Positions 5,598 through 53,485 of a stretch of 64,000 bases of DNA are shown one piece after another. How positions within the stretch are numbered: the first letter of the stretch is position 1; each line of letters begins with the position of its first letter. The notes beneath the pieces were generated by a model, which worked only from the letters and a program-made list of their open reading frames with translations, searched no databases and was not told the origin of the DNA. Made by a program: the position numbers and the translations under genes. The DNA comes from Dicyema japonicum (Eukaryota > Dicyemida > Rhombozoa > Dicyemidae): contig RDEW01000011.1 in assembly GCA_011109175.1 (NCBI GenBank), forward strand, positions 242,193 to 306,192, given 5' to 3'.

Positions 5598-6210
5598 ATG
5601 GATGATCATTGTGGTGCTTTTTCTATGTCTATTGATTATTCTTCCAACCACTCAAAAGTTGAGGATAAACTTATGAAACGGTTCAAATGCTTTATTTATC
5701 TCTAGGAAAATAAAAACAGAATCGCTGCTCAAATAGCACGACAGGAAGAAACTCTACATAAGCGATTTAGAGGAACGTCTAAAAGACCTGGAAAAATCCA
5801 ATGCTCTCCTCACTATGCAAAACAAGGGCCTTGATCGACAAAAATAGAGACCTGACTGAAAAAATTACTGAAATAACTCGCCATGGAGCTAGTGAGTCAC
5901 TGCCGCTTTTCAAGTCCGCTGAACTTGAGTCTTCTCCGCAGCAGAAGACGGCAGTGATCACTTCCCTCCTCTTAATAACTCTTTTTTTGATAAAGTCGTC
6001 TTTGACGACGACCCTATTGGAGAGTGGAGTGCGAAACAAAATTTATTTTACGGAGACTCAGATGGATCTTTTGGATGGACCGCTGACGATTTCTTTGCTG
6101 GTGAAATTAATCGTGTTGCAGTTGACGAGGATTGGGCATTTCCTTTTGGTTTGAGAAGTCCGGGTCAGTTTAAAGATTATATTAACTTTGATCCTTTCTC
6201 GCTCAATTAA
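5598..6210 (+). CDS. XBP1-like bZIP factor with IRE1 intron
   Basis: XBP1 is the bZIP activator of the unfolded protein response; IRE1 removes a short mRNA segment in the cytoplasm to make the active form. Exon 1 (5598-5680) starts ATG-GAT-GAT and ends in EDKLMKR. A 25-bp GT-AG intron (5681-5705) is followed by KIKNRIAAQIARQ, the XBP1-type basic region, then SDLEERLKDLEK with leucines at exact heptad spacing for five turns. The unspliced frame ends at 6154 in a hydrophobic tail. Removing 5919-5938 moves translation into an acidic tail of about 90 residues (DDDPIGEW, DEDWAF) ending at 6210. Two frame breaks lie in the bZIP: after ARQ, where spacing needs one more codon (two bases missing), and near 5830, where one C is extra. 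The zipper register is kept across both. The length is short for XBP1. The gene converges on cyclophilin. Confidence 0.88.
5910..5949 (+). promoter_or_regulatory. Twin IRE1 splice-site hairpins
   Basis: Hairpin 1: stem caagt/acttg (5911-5915 with 5923-5927, plus a flanking T-A pair) closes loop ccgctga. Hairpin 2: stem gtcttct/agaagac (5929-5935 with 5943-5949) closes loop ccgcagc. Both loops fit the seven-base metazoan IRE1 consensus C-N-G|C-N-G-N; the second is the same as the 5' loop of vertebrate XBP1. Cutting after each third-position G (5918 and 5938) excises 20 bases. The excised length is 2 modulo 3, as for the 26-base vertebrate and 23-base nematode introns, so the frame changes the same way. 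Confidence 0.9.
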
Positions 6211-7267: not shown

Positions 7268-7940
7268 TTAATAATATGGGACATCCACGTAATTTGCTGT
7301 GGACGCAATTATTTTGACTTCTTTAATCGGTATATCACTAGTGGATGTCTGGGACTGACCAATAAGCTTCACAATATCCTACAAATAAGAGGAAGCTTAA
7401 CCATCCCTTCAATGACCTTTCCGAATACTACATGCTTTCCATTTAGCCAGGGAGTAGCGGCGAGGGTAATAAAGAACTGCGACCCATTAGTATTTGGACC
7501 GCTATTGGCCATTGACAATATCCCCCAGTCACTGTGAGTGAGCTTGAAGTTCTCGTCATCAAACTTAGTTCCGTAGATAGATTTTCCTTTTATAACATTT
7601 GCAAGCAACCACCAGTCCCGTCGCTATTTGTAAAGTCTCCACCTTGAATCATAAAGCTATCGATAACTCTGTGAAAGATGGAGTCCTTGTAGGAGAGATT
7701 GGGATACTTTGTTGAGCATTAAAACATTACAGTGCCGTTTGCCAAATGAAAGAAATTTTCTGCAGTTTTTGGCACGGTTTTTCCGAAAAGTCCAATTTTG
7801 ATTGTTCCGACGGATTCGCCTCCAACGCTGATGACAAATTCAACCTGAGTTTGTACACTATGAATACCTCGTGAGTTATGAGTGGTCCACGCAAAGCAAC
7901 AAAATGACAGAAACAGTAAACAGAACATTAGTGAAACCAT
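7268..7940 (-). CDS. Secreted cyclophilin-type peptidyl-prolyl isomerase
   Basis: Catalyses cis-trans isomerisation of X-Pro bonds; the layout matches the cyclophilin B class of the secretory pathway. Exons on the minus strand: 7940-7731, 7706-7610, 7586-7402, 7378-7268, with GT-AG introns of 24, 23 and 23 bp. Spliced length is 200 residues. Residues 1-18 ([15 protein letters not shown]...) form a signal peptide. The core shows FHRVI with the catalytic Arg, QGGDF, a [15 protein letters not shown] block, the drug-binding Trp in [12 protein letters not shown], and GKVIEGMDIVK, all in order and without a gap. I chose ATG at 7940 because it starts the signal peptide; an in-frame TTG upstream follows a TTTTAG that could be a splice acceptor. 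The C terminus ends DVPYY and lacks an obvious ER-retention tail. Intact and very likely functional. Confidence 0.97.
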
Positions 7941-12558: not shown

Positions 12559-13884
12559 TCACATGGATAACTTTTCAAATATCTTCACTTCAGGTTGAAC
12601 AGTAAACTGTCGACAATCGGAAGTAAAAACCGTAATGATGGATTTCGAAGGGGAAGGAGTAAGTTGATTGTCAAGTAGCCACGTTGTTGGAATATCGAGG
12701 TGTGGTTGTAACCTTGTCGAGGATTTCTCGATGATATTGTGTGTTTGAAGCAATTATTAAATCATCTGCGCAAGAAAGAATAAGGGGTTCTTATTTCTCA
12801 GGGATATTCCTCAAATGAAGGTCGGGGGAGATGGCAGAATTTTGTGGAACCCTACATGATAAATATCTGGAATAAGATTTCTTTGACATCACAAGAGTGT
12901 GATCCATTCTACATAAGGTGAGATCTGGGGAGGTATTTAAGTCCCCATGGCGTAAGGCGGTTCTTTCCGAATCGTCGGCCAATACAATGCAGTCGTTTCG
13001 AGTTTGCAATAGTTTATGAAAGAAGATTGAGGTTCCTGTTCCAGCAACTGCTCCATCTTTCCATGGAATTTCCACTGAGTCATATCCTTCCAGAATATAA
13101 TTCCTTCCTTCTCGAATCTTCGTCTCGTTGACTACCACGACATCTGCCTTGGCAGTCCTCATAAGTAGTGCTAGTTCATCATGCCTTTTCACCAAGGAGC
13201 GGGCATTCACCAGCACTAACTTTAGGTTTTTTTCAGATTTCTTTTTGGTGGCCTGGGCTCTCCATGGCCAGGTCCACCATTTCCCGTAAATCCACTCCTA
13301 GTGCATCACTTAATTCTTTCAGTCTTGTTATAATTCATTTAGTTCTTCTTTGATTCTTCCTGGTATCTTTTATTTGGTTTGCCAAACCGATTTCTTCGGT
13401 ATTAGCTGAAGAGAGCTTGTTAACCCTTGGAACAATAATTCTTTTTTCGTGTTAGTGTCTCAACTTTGTCGTCTATGACGTTCATAGATTTCAGATCTGC
13501 TTTTTGGACTTGGGGAATAAGCTTTCGCCTGGCCTCCATAAGCACAGGGCATCCTTCATACCTTGCACCGTGTTTTGCTGATCCGCAATTTATGCATTTC
13601 CGTTCAGAATCCATATCCATATTACATTTGGAGATGTCATGCTCTCCCGCGCAACGTAAACATCTTTTCTTTCCTGTGCACTGGTATGAAAAGTGACCGA
13701 TCTGCTGACAGTTATAGCAGATCGGCGGTCCTCTTCTCTTCCAATCCTTCCGAAAACGAATCAGTCCTGCCCTCCTTCTATTCGGAGTCTTATTCGCGAG
13801 AGGAATACTCTGAAGGCGAAGCACAGACGATGTGTGGACATGTGGGATAGGATAACTTTGAAAAATAATATCGATGCTATCCAA
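12559..13884 (-). mobile_element. Jockey-like LINE with ORF1, internally deleted
   Basis: Read from 13,884 downward: an ORF1 C-terminal part with three Cys clusters (CYNCQQIGHFSYQC, CLRCAGEHDISKC, CINCGSAKHGARYEGC), the nucleic-acid-binding knuckles of jockey-like ORF1; then, from 13,216, an ORF2 start with the endonuclease opening LVNARSLVKRHDEL and the catalytic-Glu block VVVNETKIREG; then, near 12,850, the reverse-transcriptase block VPQNSAISPDL followed by SCADDLIIAS. The middle of ORF2 is missing, so about 2 kb was deleted. The end abuts a plus-strand LINE near 13,780-13,880, and the two frames overlap there on opposite strands. Confidence 0.75.
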
Positions 13885-15545
13885 AAAGTTCTACAGAGAG
13901 CCTGGAAGTTGTACTCCGAAAACCAAGTTAGGAAAGCAGCCTCGAAAGTGCACTGGAAGAATCATTGTACTGGCGGATCAAGATGGAAGAACAATTCCCC
14001 TGGAAAGTGTACCGTCAGTATTCAGGAAACAATTAGAAAACATACAGGGAGTAGACCCCGCCAGTATTATATCTGAAAAATTCTCAGAAGAAATATCTAG
14101 TTCTATGGATTACTCCATAGACGATCTGAATAGTATGGTAGAGGAAATCACCTTGGCAGAAGTCAGGACTGCTATACGGGAGTGCAAAAACAAGGCTCCT
14201 GGATTTGATAGCATTCCGATGACTATGTTTAAAGAAGGATCCGATGAATTGCTATCTGTTCTACAAAAGATGTATAACGCGAGTTTCAAGCTCGGACATT
14301 CCCCTTCACTATGGAAGCAATCAATTGTATAGATGATCCCTAAACCCGGAAACTCGAGGAAAGATCCTCTTAGTTATAGGCTATGAGCCTTATCTGCTCT
14401 ACATCGAAGATTATGGAACGGATTTTTTCAAGAAATTGAATCAATATATAGAAAAGATCAATTTTCTACAGTGTTACCAATGGGGTTTTCGGCCAGATGG
14501 ATCGTGCGGAAATTGCATTCACTCTCTAAACTATGAGATTGCAAATGCTTTTGAGAAGAGGAGCCAGTTGAGCCTTGTCTGCCTTGACATCTCTAAGGCT
14601 TTCGACAGTGTATGGCACGAGGCCTTATTCTGTCAATTGGTTCGATCAAAAATTTCAAGACAAATGTTCCTATGGCTGAAGAACCTGTTGACTGGGAGGG
14701 TATCAAACGTGGTGGTTGGTGGAAGATATTCCGAAGATATATTGTTTAAAAGAGGAGTGCCGCAGGGGTCTATTCTAAGCCCTCTATTATTCAACATATT
14801 TATGGAAGACTTTCCTTCTCCACAGAGACGTTAGGACCAGGCTGATGATATATGCGGATGACATCTTAATCCTAGACTCATCTCTGAAGGCCTACATCTC
14901 TGAGCGACGAATCGGGGCTTTTATCGACAGAGTTCAGGTTTGGTGCGATAGGAGAGGGATGAAACTATCTACAGAAAAATCCAGTTACTTGCGAATATGC
15001 AGGCTGGGTCGACAACAGAGAGAGTATACGCTATGGATACCTAGAGTCTCTAGCCTGAAATACCTGGGAATTGCAGTGGATGGAAGAGGATCGTATCGGA
15101 AGGACATCGAGGAGCGGAGAAGAAGGCCGTTCAAGCGATGTTCTGCTCCAGAAAACTTATGTGGATGCCGATACAATGCTCTATATCTTCCGAATGTGAT
15201 TCTCCCAAGACTGATATACGGATGCGAAAGATGGTTTTACTCCCTCGAGAAAAAGGATTCTCGTTCGCCTGGAGAAAACAAGGCGAGCGGCGATAAAAAT
15301 ATCTCTGAGGAGGAAATTACATGAAAGCCTTTCCGAGGAAGAGAATAGCCTTGTCAGGCCGGTAAAAATAGATATCGAAGTAAGGTTGGGTAACCAGCTT
15401 TACAATACGTATTAAATGGACGACTACAATGGAGATGGGATACGTGTAAAGTGTCCAGGCCGCAAAGGCGGACACGATTAAAATCCCTTTAACTAACTCC
15501 TTACTTACTTTGGAATAAATTTGATTTGATTTGATTTGATTGAGG
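13780..15545 (+). mobile_element. R1-like LINE reverse transcriptase with (TTGAT)n tail
   Basis: Plus-strand frames give TLAEVRTAIRECKNKAPGFD, then WGFRPDGSC, CLDISKAFDSVWH with the first catalytic Asp, RGVPQGSILSPLLFNIF, IYADDILIL with the catalytic Asp pair, and a LKYLGIAVD thumb block. Three frame changes are needed (near 14,330, 14,430 and 14,840). The 3' region ends in a short TTGAT repeat at 15,518-15,541, probably the element's own tail. The upstream endonuclease is missing. Confidence 0.8.
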
Positions 15546-28974: not shown

Positions 28975-30310
28975 ATTTTATTTATTTTTTATTTTATTTT
29001 TAATAACCCCGGGAACACCGAGAAAGAAAGACAAAAGAGTCAGACAGTTAGGTGATCCCAGTCCTCGCAATCACTTGTGCCATTCGACGTCTGTGATCCT
29101 CCATCGTCCCCACTACTTTCCGGAAGAGCCTTCTCTCGGTCTTGCAGAGGAATCCGATCGGGGAGGGGAATTTCTTATCCAATCGGTTTTCTCTTGCCAT
29201 GGGAAGGATTAGGAGAAGCGGATTTCCATCTTCCTCACAGAGGCGAAGAAATCCGGAGCCACGACTACGGATCTTAGCTTCCATGAGTAGTGGGTCGACT
29301 GTTGATCCATTACGTGGGGAAAGCATACTGATTGTTTTCCGGTATATCGAGTTGATTCTTTGGACCAAAGACTCCGATAGCCCGAATCTCCATGCAACGG
29401 AGGCATACTCAATGGCAGGCGCGATTGTTTGTTGGTAGAGTGTAGAAACGGAAAAGTCCATGTTCCTCGTGGTCCTCCGAACAAGGGCGCGTATAACGTT
29501 AACTTTCTGGAGGCCCCTGGTGATCATGTCTGTTGCGTGGGAGTTGAATTTGAGAAGGCTGTCGTACTTGACTCCAAGGACAATGGGGGACTTTGTCACT
29601 GGAATCCTAGTGGGACCAATGAAAAGACTCGGTTCATCCTTGGAACGACGGTCCGACGTGAATGTGGAACAGATAGACTTGGTTGCAGAAATCGTTAGTC
29701 GATTGCCAGCAATCCAATCGTGGAGAATGTTCAATTTTGTCTGAGTTTTAAGGGATGCGACTTGAGTCGAGCGGTTCCGTATTGCAATGACTACGTCGTC
29801 TGCGTAGGATAATAACAGGGAATCTTCGTCTCCATCATTAGGTAGGTCGTGTAGGAAAAGGTTGAATAGAATTGGTGAAAGTGGAGACCCCTGGGGTACC
29901 CCGTTCGGTAGTAATCGTGATCTAGATCTGAGATCACCACTGACTACTCTTCCACGTCTTCCAGACAAAAAGTTGGCCAGCCATAATTTCACATTCGGAC
30001 GAATATTAGTAGAAAAAATTTTTCCAACCAAGATTTTCCTCGAAACAGTGTCAAAGGCTTTGTTGATGTCAATAGAAACCAAGATTGTGCGTTTCTGAGG
30101 CGGAGGATGGGTGTTAAAACCGTCGGCAATTAACTGCGATAAAGTTTCCAAGTATGTAGCGGTGGACCTACCGCGGAGGAAACCATGTTGAAATATAGGA
30201 CGCAGAAGATACGGAATAATGACTGATAATACAAGTTTCTCCATAATTTTTGACAGTGTGCTGGTAACGGAAATAGGCCTGTTGGATGCAGGATTGAGAA
30301 ATGGTGGATT
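28975..30310 (-). mobile_element. Jockey-like LINE, 5'-truncated, with open 398-codon frame
   Basis: The best preserved reverse transcriptase in the window. From residue 1: HGFLRGRSTATYLE, SIDINKAFDTVSRK with the first catalytic Asp, NGVPQGSPLSPILFNLFLHD, LSYADDVVIA with the catalytic Asp pair, then IVLGVKYD in the thumb and a C-terminal region ending IARTGIT. The upstream piece SNRPISVTSTLSKI is continuous but lies before the first ATG, so translation would originally have come from a longer ORF2 with an endonuclease, now cut at about 30,310. The 3' tail on the minus strand reads tttctttctcggtgttcccg and ends A-rich near 28,975. All catalytic residues are present. Confidence 0.92.
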
Positions 30311-30715
30311 CGAAAAGAGTTTTTAATAATTTTATAATAAATTTTTAATTTGTTTGATTACAAAAGCATATCAGTTTCATATAATTTCTTCAGAATGTCT
30401 GAACTTCCAACCTCACTTCAATGCTTCGAGGATTATCCTCAAAGCAGGAATTCGAGGCTTGAAGTTCTACAGCCAACATTATTGTCCTCAGTACAATTTT
30501 TTAATTTAGCTTAAATAATCAAAGACACAGTAGAACATTACCTGGAAGCAGAGGAACAAGGGTATAAGTTAGTTCCTCTATGAAGGAAGTTACTTTATTT
30601 TAAGCTTACTGGCACGAAAGTACTAAGAAATGTTTATTTACAAAAATGTTAATTTAAAAATATCAACACAATGACTTCCTAACTTGATAAAGAATCGATT
30701 CAAATAAGAAAGCCC
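30311..30715. other. AT-rich spacer
   Basis: No motif recognised; possibly decayed repeat. Contains no open frame of interest. Confidence 0.35.
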
Positions 30716-49540: not shown

Positions 49541-49711
49541 AGATAGTCTACTATTATTATTATTAAGGCACTTTCACGAAAGCCATAATGTTTATAACCC
49601 CGTGTGTGCAACACTCAAAACACTTAGCGTTAATCTTCTCCATTTTCCTCTATCGTGATGGCCAAGCGGTTAAGGCGGCAGATTTGAAATCTGTTGTTGA
49701 GATAGTCTACT
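49541..49711 (-). mobile_element. Retroposed insert carrying an antisense tRNA-Ser piece
   Basis: A perfect 12-base direct repeat agatagtctact bounds it (49,541-49,552 and 49,700-49,711). In the minus orientation the insert ends in a TAA-type repeat right at the left duplication, so that is its 3' end. At its 5' end lie 48 bases antisense to the first part of a serine tRNA. Confidence 0.65.
49652..49699 (+). tRNA. tRNA-Ser(UGA) fragment, 5' part only
   Basis: Contains TGGCCAAGCGGTTAAGGC (D arm, A box) and the anticodon arm CAGATTTGAAATCTG with anticodon TGA. The sequence stops at the end of the anticodon stem; there is no variable arm, T arm or 3' acceptor. It is not a functional tRNA. Confidence 0.7.
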
Positions 49712-49869: not shown

Positions 49870-52540
49870 TTAAGCACTCCCGGGAAATCAAAATTAATTA
49901 GATTAATTAAGTTCCCCTTGTGCCACGTCCAGTATCCTCCCACTCATCCTCTTCCATGTTCCTTTGTTCCGGGCCATTGCTCGTAGTGAGTAAAGATCTT
50001 CACCATTTCGTAGAGTTTTGTTTATTCGGATTAGGTCATCATTTAGTACTGAAGGCAACGTCACTCTAGGCCTGCCACGGAATGATCCCTTCAGTTGTGC
50101 GAAATAGTTCTCCATTGCAATGTTTGGTGGAGTCAACATATCCATTCGTAAGATGTGCCCGAAAAATCTCCACCTAGCCTTGAGAATCTCCTCTGATAAT
50201 GGCCTTAAGCCACATCTTTTGTACAGTTCTGAATTTGATATCTTTTTCGGGAAATGTATTCTCAAGATGTTTCTTAGTTGATTTCTATGAAATTGATCCA
50301 GATTGTCCATTTCCCGTTTCGTAATCCCCCATGTCCCACAGTTGTATGTCAGGACTGGAACCACGAATGTTTTTACAATTTTAGCTTTGTATTCGTAGTT
50401 ATGCTCTTCTTAGAACGCCAGATAGTTAAGAATTTTTTATATGCAGCAGTGGAAAGGATTTTTCTGTGGGTAACATCTTCTGAGTCTCCAAGTAGTGAAC
50501 CAACTTTTTTATGCCTTCTCCATGATTCATCGTAAGTGCGTACAACTCGTACAAGTTTTGTATATTCAGTTTTGTCTTGGTTGACAACTAAGAACCATTT
50601 AGAAAAGGCATTTGGTAAGTTCTTGAGAACGTGATGAAGAATTTCAACATCTTCAGAAACAAAGTCAAGATCGTCTGCATATATTAACTCGATTATTTTG
50701 TTGTTCTCAATTAAAGGCCTGAAATCTCTCAGTGCAGCCTCCAGGTAGATTATGAATAGAACTGGTGACAAAGAGTCTCCTTGCGGAATTCCACGTGAAG
50801 TATAAAAGAATTCTGAAGTAGTTTTTCCGAGTTTGGTTGCTAGTTGCGTATTCTGCAGTAGTTTTTGTATAATTTTGACATCATCCGTTGTTAGGAAGCT
50901 TGTGAGTACTTCAAGAAGTTTGCCTCTATGAACTGAGTCAAACGCTCTGGACGTGTCTATTCCGAGAACATCTATGCACTTTTTATATTTTTATAGCACT
51001 TGACCATCTGTGTGTCCAAATGACATCGGCAGTGGATCTGCCTCACCGGAAACCACTTTGTCCTGGTGACAGAAAATACTCCACCTTGTCTTTGATTTTT
51101 TCCAATGTAATGATTGACAAGATTTTTCGCAGCGTAGTTAGTAGGATGATTGGTCTTAGGTTGGAAAGGGGCCCTTTGGGTTTTCCCGGTTTTTGCAGTG
51201 GAATTAACCAACCCTTGCCAATGTCTAACGTAGTGTTTTCTTCAAATATTTTGTTGAGTATATTGGTAATGATTGTTACCAACTTCACTGGGGCATACTT
51301 TATAAGTTCGGCTGGGATATTCTCTGGTCCTGCCGATCTGTCATTTTTCAATTTTTTAATTGCATCCAGTGTTTCTTGTGTGTTTATTGGGATGTCCAAA
51401 CCATGCTTGACTTGTGCACCAAATTTATAGCCTATTTCGTTGTCCCAGTTGAGCATATGATAGTAATAAGCAGATATAGTAGCTGCTTTGTCCTTTTCAT
51501 CGATAATTATTCTGCCAAGGATGTCATTGATTATTATGGGGCTTGCACTCTTTTTCTTATTAATTAATTGAATAGCTTTGAACATTTTCACTCCATCTTT
51601 ATATTTTTCAATGTCTTCAATTTGTTTTTCTATTTCTTTAGCCGTTAGGGATTTCTGAGTTTGCTTGATTTTTAATAATGTTCGGTTTCGTTGTTGCCGA
51701 AGTTCCTTGGCCTTTTCTGGAGACCTTGAGTTTTCTATCTTCAATCTCAAGGCTTTCTGGTTTTCTGATAGGACGCAAATATCATGATTGTAAAATTTAC
51801 GGGGTTTTGTAATACTTCCCAACACATCACATGCTGTACCTTTTATCGACTTTGTGACTTTGTCCCAAATAATATGAACAGGTTTAGTTTCGTCGATATC
51901 ATTAAGTTCAAGATTTAGTTGATACGCATATTTCTGTTGAGTTGACTTGTCATGTAATAATTGGATATCATATTGCTCCTGCTTTTTATTGGAAGGTGTT
52001 TTCATTTGGTTATGGACTTTGTATAGTCCAATGCGAGATAACCACAATTTTATGATCACTATTTGTCTCTAATCCTCCATATGACCTGGAGTCTACGAGG
52101 AGATGTTTGTGACCTCGTCTGCATAGTATGTAGTCAATTTGATTATATATTTTTATGTAATTTCCTTGCAAATCCTTCCTAGTTCCAGTCCAAGTCGTCT
52201 TGTGTCTCGCTGGGTGACGGAATTCCGTATTGCACAAAAACAGATCCAAGGAAGTGCAAAAGTGGATTAATGCCATTCCAGGCGTGTTTCGCCGATTTCT
52301 TCCATGAGATCCAATACAAGTTTTTCCAGATCTGGCTTTTCCTGCTTTGGCATTCCAGTCCCCAGCAATTAAGCAAAAATATGAAGAACTGAGGGTGTTG
52401 TAAACCCTTATGAGGGCGGAGTAGAATTCTTCTAGTTCTTCTGGATTGGCAGATGCCCTGATTCCAGTCAGGGCGTATATGTTGATGATTGTCACTGTAG
52501 AGTTTGGTTTGCTTTTTATGCTCACTGGACGTCCACAAAG
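49870..52540 (-). mobile_element. RTE-like LINE, nearly complete
   Basis: Frames on the minus strand, in order: endonuclease with TIINIYALTG, LIAGDWNAKAGKARSG, HKTTWTGTRKD, NQIDYILCRRG and TNSDHKIVV (52,573-52,010); reverse transcriptase N-terminal part (52,059-51,043) with NDRSAGPENIPAELIKYAP and LRPIILLTTLRKILS; a decayed catalytic-1 region (51,040-50,780); MSPVLFIIYLEAALRDF and ELIYADDLDFV with the Asp pair (50,771-50,373); then RWRFFGHILRMDML and FRGRPRVTLPS (50,364-49,903), ending GELN. Endonuclease catalytic residues are present. Only the 5' edge and about 250 bp in the middle are damaged. Confidence 0.88.
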
Positions 52541-53485
52541 CTTTCGACTCTGTGCTAAAGAAGAACCTAACATGGAAAATCTACCAATCAGATATCCCTG
52601 AAAACCTCAAACGCTGGCTGATGAACTTCCTTAGCAGACGAAGAGGTAGAGTGTCCATTAGAAACATTCCTTCTGTCTCCCGTTTATTTCCAAATGGAGT
52701 ATTCCAGGATTCGCCGCTATCACCATTAATATTCAACTTATTTACGGCTGACATTCCGACGCCGAATGGAGAAGACCTGATTCTGGCTTATGCAGACGAT
52801 ATCGTCTTAGCTTCACGGGATCAGATCACCCAAACAGCGACGGAAAGAATACAACACCACATGGATCGACCACTCTAGTGGTTTAATGAAAATCAGATGT
52901 CAATCAATACCGAAAAATCTGTTACAACTCTCTATACCTTGGTCAATAGAGGTTACTGCGAAGGGAAGAGAATTGCCGTTCAGCAAATGGCAAAAAATAT
53001 ATGACTTTCGATACGCACATGAATTTTTCGAGACATGTCACTAACGTGCTGAACAATTGTGAGAAGAAAATCAATTTTCTGAAATGCCTAACAGGTCTAT
53101 GGAAAATTAGACATCACCCTATACTTAAAACGCTCTACTCACAGTACACCGAACCATGCATTTCATATGCGTGCACTTCATGGGGACCACTGGCCTCTTA
53201 TACGAACATCCAGAAAATCTCCGCAACCCAGAAAAGGGCCTTCAAGCTAACGGAGAGATGGTACACAGGGGAAAACATTAAATCACCCACGCCCATGGAG
53301 AAACTAATCAAAAAACAAAGATGAACACCAATGCAAAAAGAATGTGCTCGTCCGCAACGAACTTGTGTAAGCTCTAGGGATCAACACTGAGAAAAGGTGA
53401 GAGCCTTGATCCAATTCATCGGGATCACTTAGTTTAGTTTTTTTCGGTTTAACAGTGGTCTTTGGAATTTATTTATTTTTTAATT
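52504..53485 (+). mobile_element. Jockey-like LINE 3' half
   Basis: Reads LDVHKAFDSVLKK with the first catalytic Asp, LFPNGVFQDSPLSPLIFNLF (GVPQGS changed to GVFQDS), LAYADDIVLA with the Asp pair, then after stops YTEPCISYACTSWGP and QKRAFKLTERW, and an ending IQFIGIT with stop and a tail ggtttaacagtggtcttt. The left edge runs into the RTE-like endonuclease on the opposite strand. Confidence 0.82.

Follow-up and report, generated by a model that had tools for sequence, protein, structure and literature searches.

The stretch of DNA analysed here, 64,000 bases long and hereafter called the window, spans positions 242193-306192 of contig C13, has a GC content of 37.4% and belongs to a genome of 64.67 Mb in 191 contigs. 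The published assembly of Dicyema japonicum is described as having 67.5 Mb in 377 scaffolds, with 4.1% gaps and 36.7% GC, and as built from Illumina and PacBio data (PMC6736024). Near its beginning the window holds an XBP1-like gene, which faces a convergent cyclophilin gene (7268-7940, minus strand); the latter has a hydrophobic N-terminus and three introns (24, 23 and 23 bases) and is free of frame breaks. The upstream part of the XBP1-like gene comprises the following elements:

5598-5680, plus strand: first coding exon, with a putative start codon at 5598 and an in-frame stop directly before it, reading MDDHCGAFSMSIDYSSNHSKVEDKLMKR into the basic region
5681-5705, plus strand: putative ordinary GT-AG intron of 25 bases, assigned by eye, with a size and a GTT start like those of the 11 introns of the IRE1 and cyclophilin genes
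5706-5872, plus strand: XBP1-type basic region and leucine zipper, a Pfam bZIP_2 match on read-through, with frame changes inside

The intron at 5681-5705 sits just upstream of the basic region and was absent from an earlier, sequence-only reading of this DNA. A longer first intron of 48 bases (5658-5705), which would spare the gene one frame change, was set aside because the 11 introns read in the IRE1 and cyclophilin genes are 22-34 bases long and because the 25-base choice places KRKIKNR ahead of the basic region, as in XBP1.

Read across the frame changes, the basic region gives KRKIKNRIAAQIA.DRKK and is followed by leucines spaced 7 residues apart, the last of which lies 21 codons ahead of the first predicted cut. 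This read-through matched Pfam bZIP_2 with an E value of 8.6e-9, whereas the genome-wide bZIP profile search without read-through recovered 5740-5832 at E 0.04, under the cut-off of the family. It aligned with human XBP1 over 59 residues without gaps and with 26 identities, scoring 129 as compared with 76 for CREB1, 74 for JUN and 52 for ATF4, and XBP1 was the best of the four. A PDB search with the read-through returned weak bZIP matches of other kinds (CREB, E 0.017; Jun); we know of no XBP1 bZIP structure in the PDB. Piecewise and read-through bZIP queries of the protein database drew 47 candidates, none at E 0.001, and 70 candidates, none at E 1; a search of this word-based type may lack the sensitivity needed for bZIP homologues. 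The assembled bZIP is not one open frame, a point likewise missing from the earlier reading. The reading changes in a run of A (5712-5716), at 5739 and in a run of G (5826-5828), two of the three changes falling in single-base runs, and the one continuous bZIP frame expected of an IRE1-spliced XBP1/HAC1 mRNA is not present in the assembly. The earlier claim of an XBP1-type bZIP right before a pair of hairpins is supported on read-through, with a frame that is broken three times as assembled.

Beyond the zipper, RNA folding defines a compact element with these parts:

5897-5957, plus strand: whole folded element, two hairpins enclosed by a closing stem of 8 pairs (5897-5904/5950-5957)
5910-5928, plus strand: predicted 5' splice-site hairpin, stem of 6 pairs (5910-5915/5923-5928), loop CCG|CTGA (RNA CCGCUGA) at 5916-5922
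5929-5949, plus strand: predicted 3' splice-site hairpin, stem of 7 pairs (5929-5935/5943-5949), loop CCG|CAGC at 5936-5942
5919-5938, plus strand: predicted IRE1-excised intron of 20 bases (2 modulo 3), placed by the rule of cutting after G3 of the loop (PMC4891664)

Folded as a single sequence, 5880-5980 formed these two hairpins at -36.6 kcal/mol, while shuffled sequences had a mean of -23.1 kcal/mol (z -4.47) and none of 200 was as stable. Folding thereby recovers the two adjacent hairpins with seven-base loops that had been noticed in the letters, and their stems do lie end to end, the 3' hairpin abutting the 5' hairpin directly (5928/5929) without a spacer. The loop consensus of IRE1 is given as CNGNNGN on a stem of about 5 pairs or more (PMC3149027), and cleavage as 3' of the G at loop position 3 (PMC4891664). 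Both loops (CCGCTGA and CCGCAGC, on stems of 6 and 7 pairs) agree with this twin stem-loop pattern, and the predicted cuts after G3 of each reproduce the excised length of 20, 2 modulo 3, that had been proposed. Given abutting stems of 6 and 7 pairs with no spacer, this length is the geometric minimum (4+6+7+3 = 20). At the hairpin site Rfam gave no match up to E 1.

How often such a pair would arise by chance was estimated in 640 Mb of simulated first-order Markov sequence (one strand, composition of the window, G-U pairs allowed), in which we counted pairs of CNGCNGN heptaloop hairpins starting at most 60 bases apart. There were 17 pairs with both stems of at least 4 pairs, 2 with stems of at least 5 and 1 with stems of at least 6. 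In 264 kb of the real genome, made up of the 64-kb window and twenty 10-kb stretches and searched on both strands, no other pair was found even with stems of at least 4 and the looser CNGNNGN loop. Fold energy alone is less special: among the 12,788 stretches of 62 bases in the 64 kb, 14 fold as stably or better, which would suit a chance origin of the element as a non-functional inverted repeat next to an unrelated bZIP. However, loop consensus, position and phase coincide here in a genome that encodes IRE1, and we regard a chance origin as extremely improbable.

The two ways of reading past the hairpins lead to very different C-termini:

5939-6210, plus strand: acidic C-terminal frame of the spliced, XBP1s-like form, open and ranking first among the three frames by codon score
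5939-6154, plus strand: C-terminal frame of the unspliced, XBP1u-like form, with a hydrophobic stretch at 5951-6001

The spliced frame runs for 89 codons from 5941 to the stop at 6208-6210 and contains 18 D+E and 5 K+R; openness at that length occurred in 130 of 20,000 simulated sequences. The codon score was built on 713 codons from the IRE1 gene and a BiP candidate. The unspliced frame has two hydrophobic stretches of 17 residues with means up to 2.09 and 1.95. Removal of the 20 bases joins the bZIP to a putative acidic activation-type C-terminus, and the proposed exchange of a hydrophobic frame for an acidic one of about 90 residues agrees with the 89 codons open to 6210. In animal XBP1u, a hydrophobic region (HR2) is described as bringing its own mRNA to the ER membrane (PMC4138184). 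By analogy, the unspliced tail may hold the mRNA at the ER membrane here.

An ordinary spliceosomal intron could also open the acidic frame. With GTGAGT at 5892 as its 5' end and 5929 or 5941 as its last base (38 or 50 bases), it would do so constitutively and leave the hairpins incidental; by our own reading either length is 2 modulo 3 and enters the same acidic frame, and the mean intron of D. japonicum is given as 38.2 bases (PMC6736024). However, the 12 introns that we identified by eye (eight from IRE1, three from cyclophilin and one from the XBP1-like gene), picked so that frames stay open, are 22-34 bases long and 10 of the 12 begin with GTT. Lengths of 38 and 50 fall outside this range of hand-picked introns, the twin consensus heptaloops are left unexplained, and we judge such an intron very unlikely. 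Two shorter GT-AG candidates were rejected: 5892-5914 (23 bases) runs straight into a stop, and 5914-5941 (28 bases) yields the closed third frame.

Excision by IRE1 presupposes the enzyme, and a search of the genome for a homologue, as the sequence-only reading had advised, found a kinase-RNase with conserved cleavage residues on contig C131; the lack of IRE1 that would have refuted that reading is therefore not the case. Removal of its eight GT-AG introns (22-34 bases, by eye) leaves a continuous product of 403 residues. Residues 10-401 match 6hx1, the closest solved IRE1 and, we take it, the human enzyme, with an E value of 3.4e-123 and 415 bits; the score against 3fbv, presumably yeast IRE1, is 319 bits. 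The RNase domain reads FRTYKG...RAIRNKRNHY. The catalytic residues of yeast IRE1 are given as tyrosine, arginine, asparagine and histidine (PMC3149027), and in our own alignment the YKG, RNK and HY positions keep these residue types. A protein search with the IRE1 sequence matched 2,911 entries; among the 120 listed, those naming an organism were all animal down to P0082, at 44-50% identity, and the first non-animals were a moss (P0085) and then a fungus (P0086). Lumenal and membrane-spanning stretches were recognised by eye further upstream. At a distance of about 2 kb past the IRE1 gene there is a long run of N (L015, about 1480-2660), either a gap or a withheld stretch.

The ligase of the animal pathway is named as RtcB, and that of yeast as Trl1 (PMC4891664). 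An RtcB gene on contig C119 scores above the HMM cut-off, and its three pieces together span model positions 1-426; the stops inside them lie, by eye, within gaps that resemble introns and are flanked by well-preserved RtcB sequence. The genome accordingly encodes a ligase for the putative joining of the exons. Besides this one well-kept copy, nine further contigs carry RtcB pieces, the majority of them containing stops, namely C101 and C169 (L024-L027 together with C119), C115, C45, C87, C120, C129, C148 and C62. At DNA level C101 and C169 are 74-80% like C119 and 84-88% like each other, and the extra copies look decayed.

The broken bZIP frame raises the question of whether the gene is alive. 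It changes three times within about 116 bases, as compared with no change in the IRE1 gene (1.2 kb coding) or the neighbouring cyclophilin gene (0.6 kb) of the same assembly, and because those two show none, three is more than expected. A recently dead XBP1 gene, with a bZIP truly broken and with hairpins and acidic frame still undecayed, would account for this difference. However, the hairpins are perfect, about 270 bases of acidic frame are free of stops, and no other XBP1-like copy was seen among the bZIP places inspected (the best 12 of 27 in the genome). Furthermore, by our own reading three HSP70 genes are interrupted by frame breaks as well (one on C53, two on C45 and two on C66), including the BiP candidate on C66 (L018), which ends in ASEEL before its stop. 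Breaks were counted only where overlapping pieces leave no room for an intron (one on C53, two on C45, one on C66), the second on C66 being added by eye and C65 and C123 left out, and some gaps between HSP70 pieces could just as well represent introns about 22 bases long. Note however that the density of frame changes in the bZIP exceeds that in the HSP70 genes. Overall, we consider a dead gene unlikely and the bZIP frame changes most likely to be assembly errors, because a DNA search of the genome found the locus only once, none of those 12 bZIP places is XBP1-like, and the gene is otherwise intact.

The genome thus contains the hairpins, the alternative reading frames and the genes for IRE1 and RtcB, and on evidence of this kind, drawn from sequence, it is very probable that the locus is an IRE1-spliced XBP1 orthologue. 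Its bearer would be a highly reduced animal and, to judge from tiny introns, genome size and GC, probably a dicyemid. When the ER is stressed, IRE1 would cut behind G3 in each of the two abutting heptaloops of the mRNA, releasing 5919-5938 (20 bases), and RtcB would presumably join the exons. The ribosome would then read from the bZIP into the acidic, activation-domain-like frame and not into the hydrophobic unspliced tail; the stress dependence of the splicing and the function of the tail are both presumed. It had been proposed that the IRE1-XBP1 arm survives in a reduced animal. The IRE1 and RtcB genes and the XBP1-type bZIP support survival, the reduced state is probable from the genome, and the frame changes leave some room for a pseudogene.

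The mechanism itself, IRE1 splicing of XBP1 and HAC1 mRNAs, is already known. A 2011 survey by Hooks and Griffiths-Jones is said to be the primary one of Hac1/Xbp1 introns, and our literature search found no paper joining Dicyema with XBP1. The locus shares with animal XBP1 mRNA the type of bZIP, twin heptaloops with cuts after G3 (predicted here), an intron length of 2 modulo 3, an acidic frame once spliced and, as a possible counterpart of HR2, a hydrophobic tail when unspliced. It differs from it in an intron of 20 bases, in stems that abut without a spacer and in a bZIP frame that is broken in the assembly. With fungal HacA/HAC1 it shares the very short intron and the twin loops, but the IRE1 here is animal-like, the bZIP is of XBP1 type and the ligase is RtcB, whereas ligation in yeast is attributed to Trl1 (PMC4891664). 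Among the animal intron lengths given in PMC2606855, 26 bases in mammals and 23 in C. elegans, none is as short as 20, and to that extent the statement that no shorter animal case is known stands; it is no record for eukaryotes, given 20 bases in filamentous fungi and 19 in C. albicans (PMC2606855, PMC6222058). We lean towards the view that this is the shortest animal IRE1 intron and the first sign of the pathway in a dicyemid-like animal, and that, in a lineage with spliceosomal introns reduced to 22-34 bases, the non-spliceosomal XBP1 intron likewise contracted to its geometric minimum, converging on the fungal design. If active here, the pathway would be a protein-folding rescue programme switched on by the removal of 20 bases, and tests of ER stress in an animal of this type have a concrete marker in the loss of exactly these bases.

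Elsewhere in the window, a tRNA-like match at 49652-49704 scored 28.2 bits, just below the Rfam gathering score of 29, and shows by eye an anticodon loop UUUGAAA; ARAGORN called no tRNA. Three open frames resemble by eye reverse transcriptases of the non-LTR type (12791-15324, 29048-30322 and 50373-52606).
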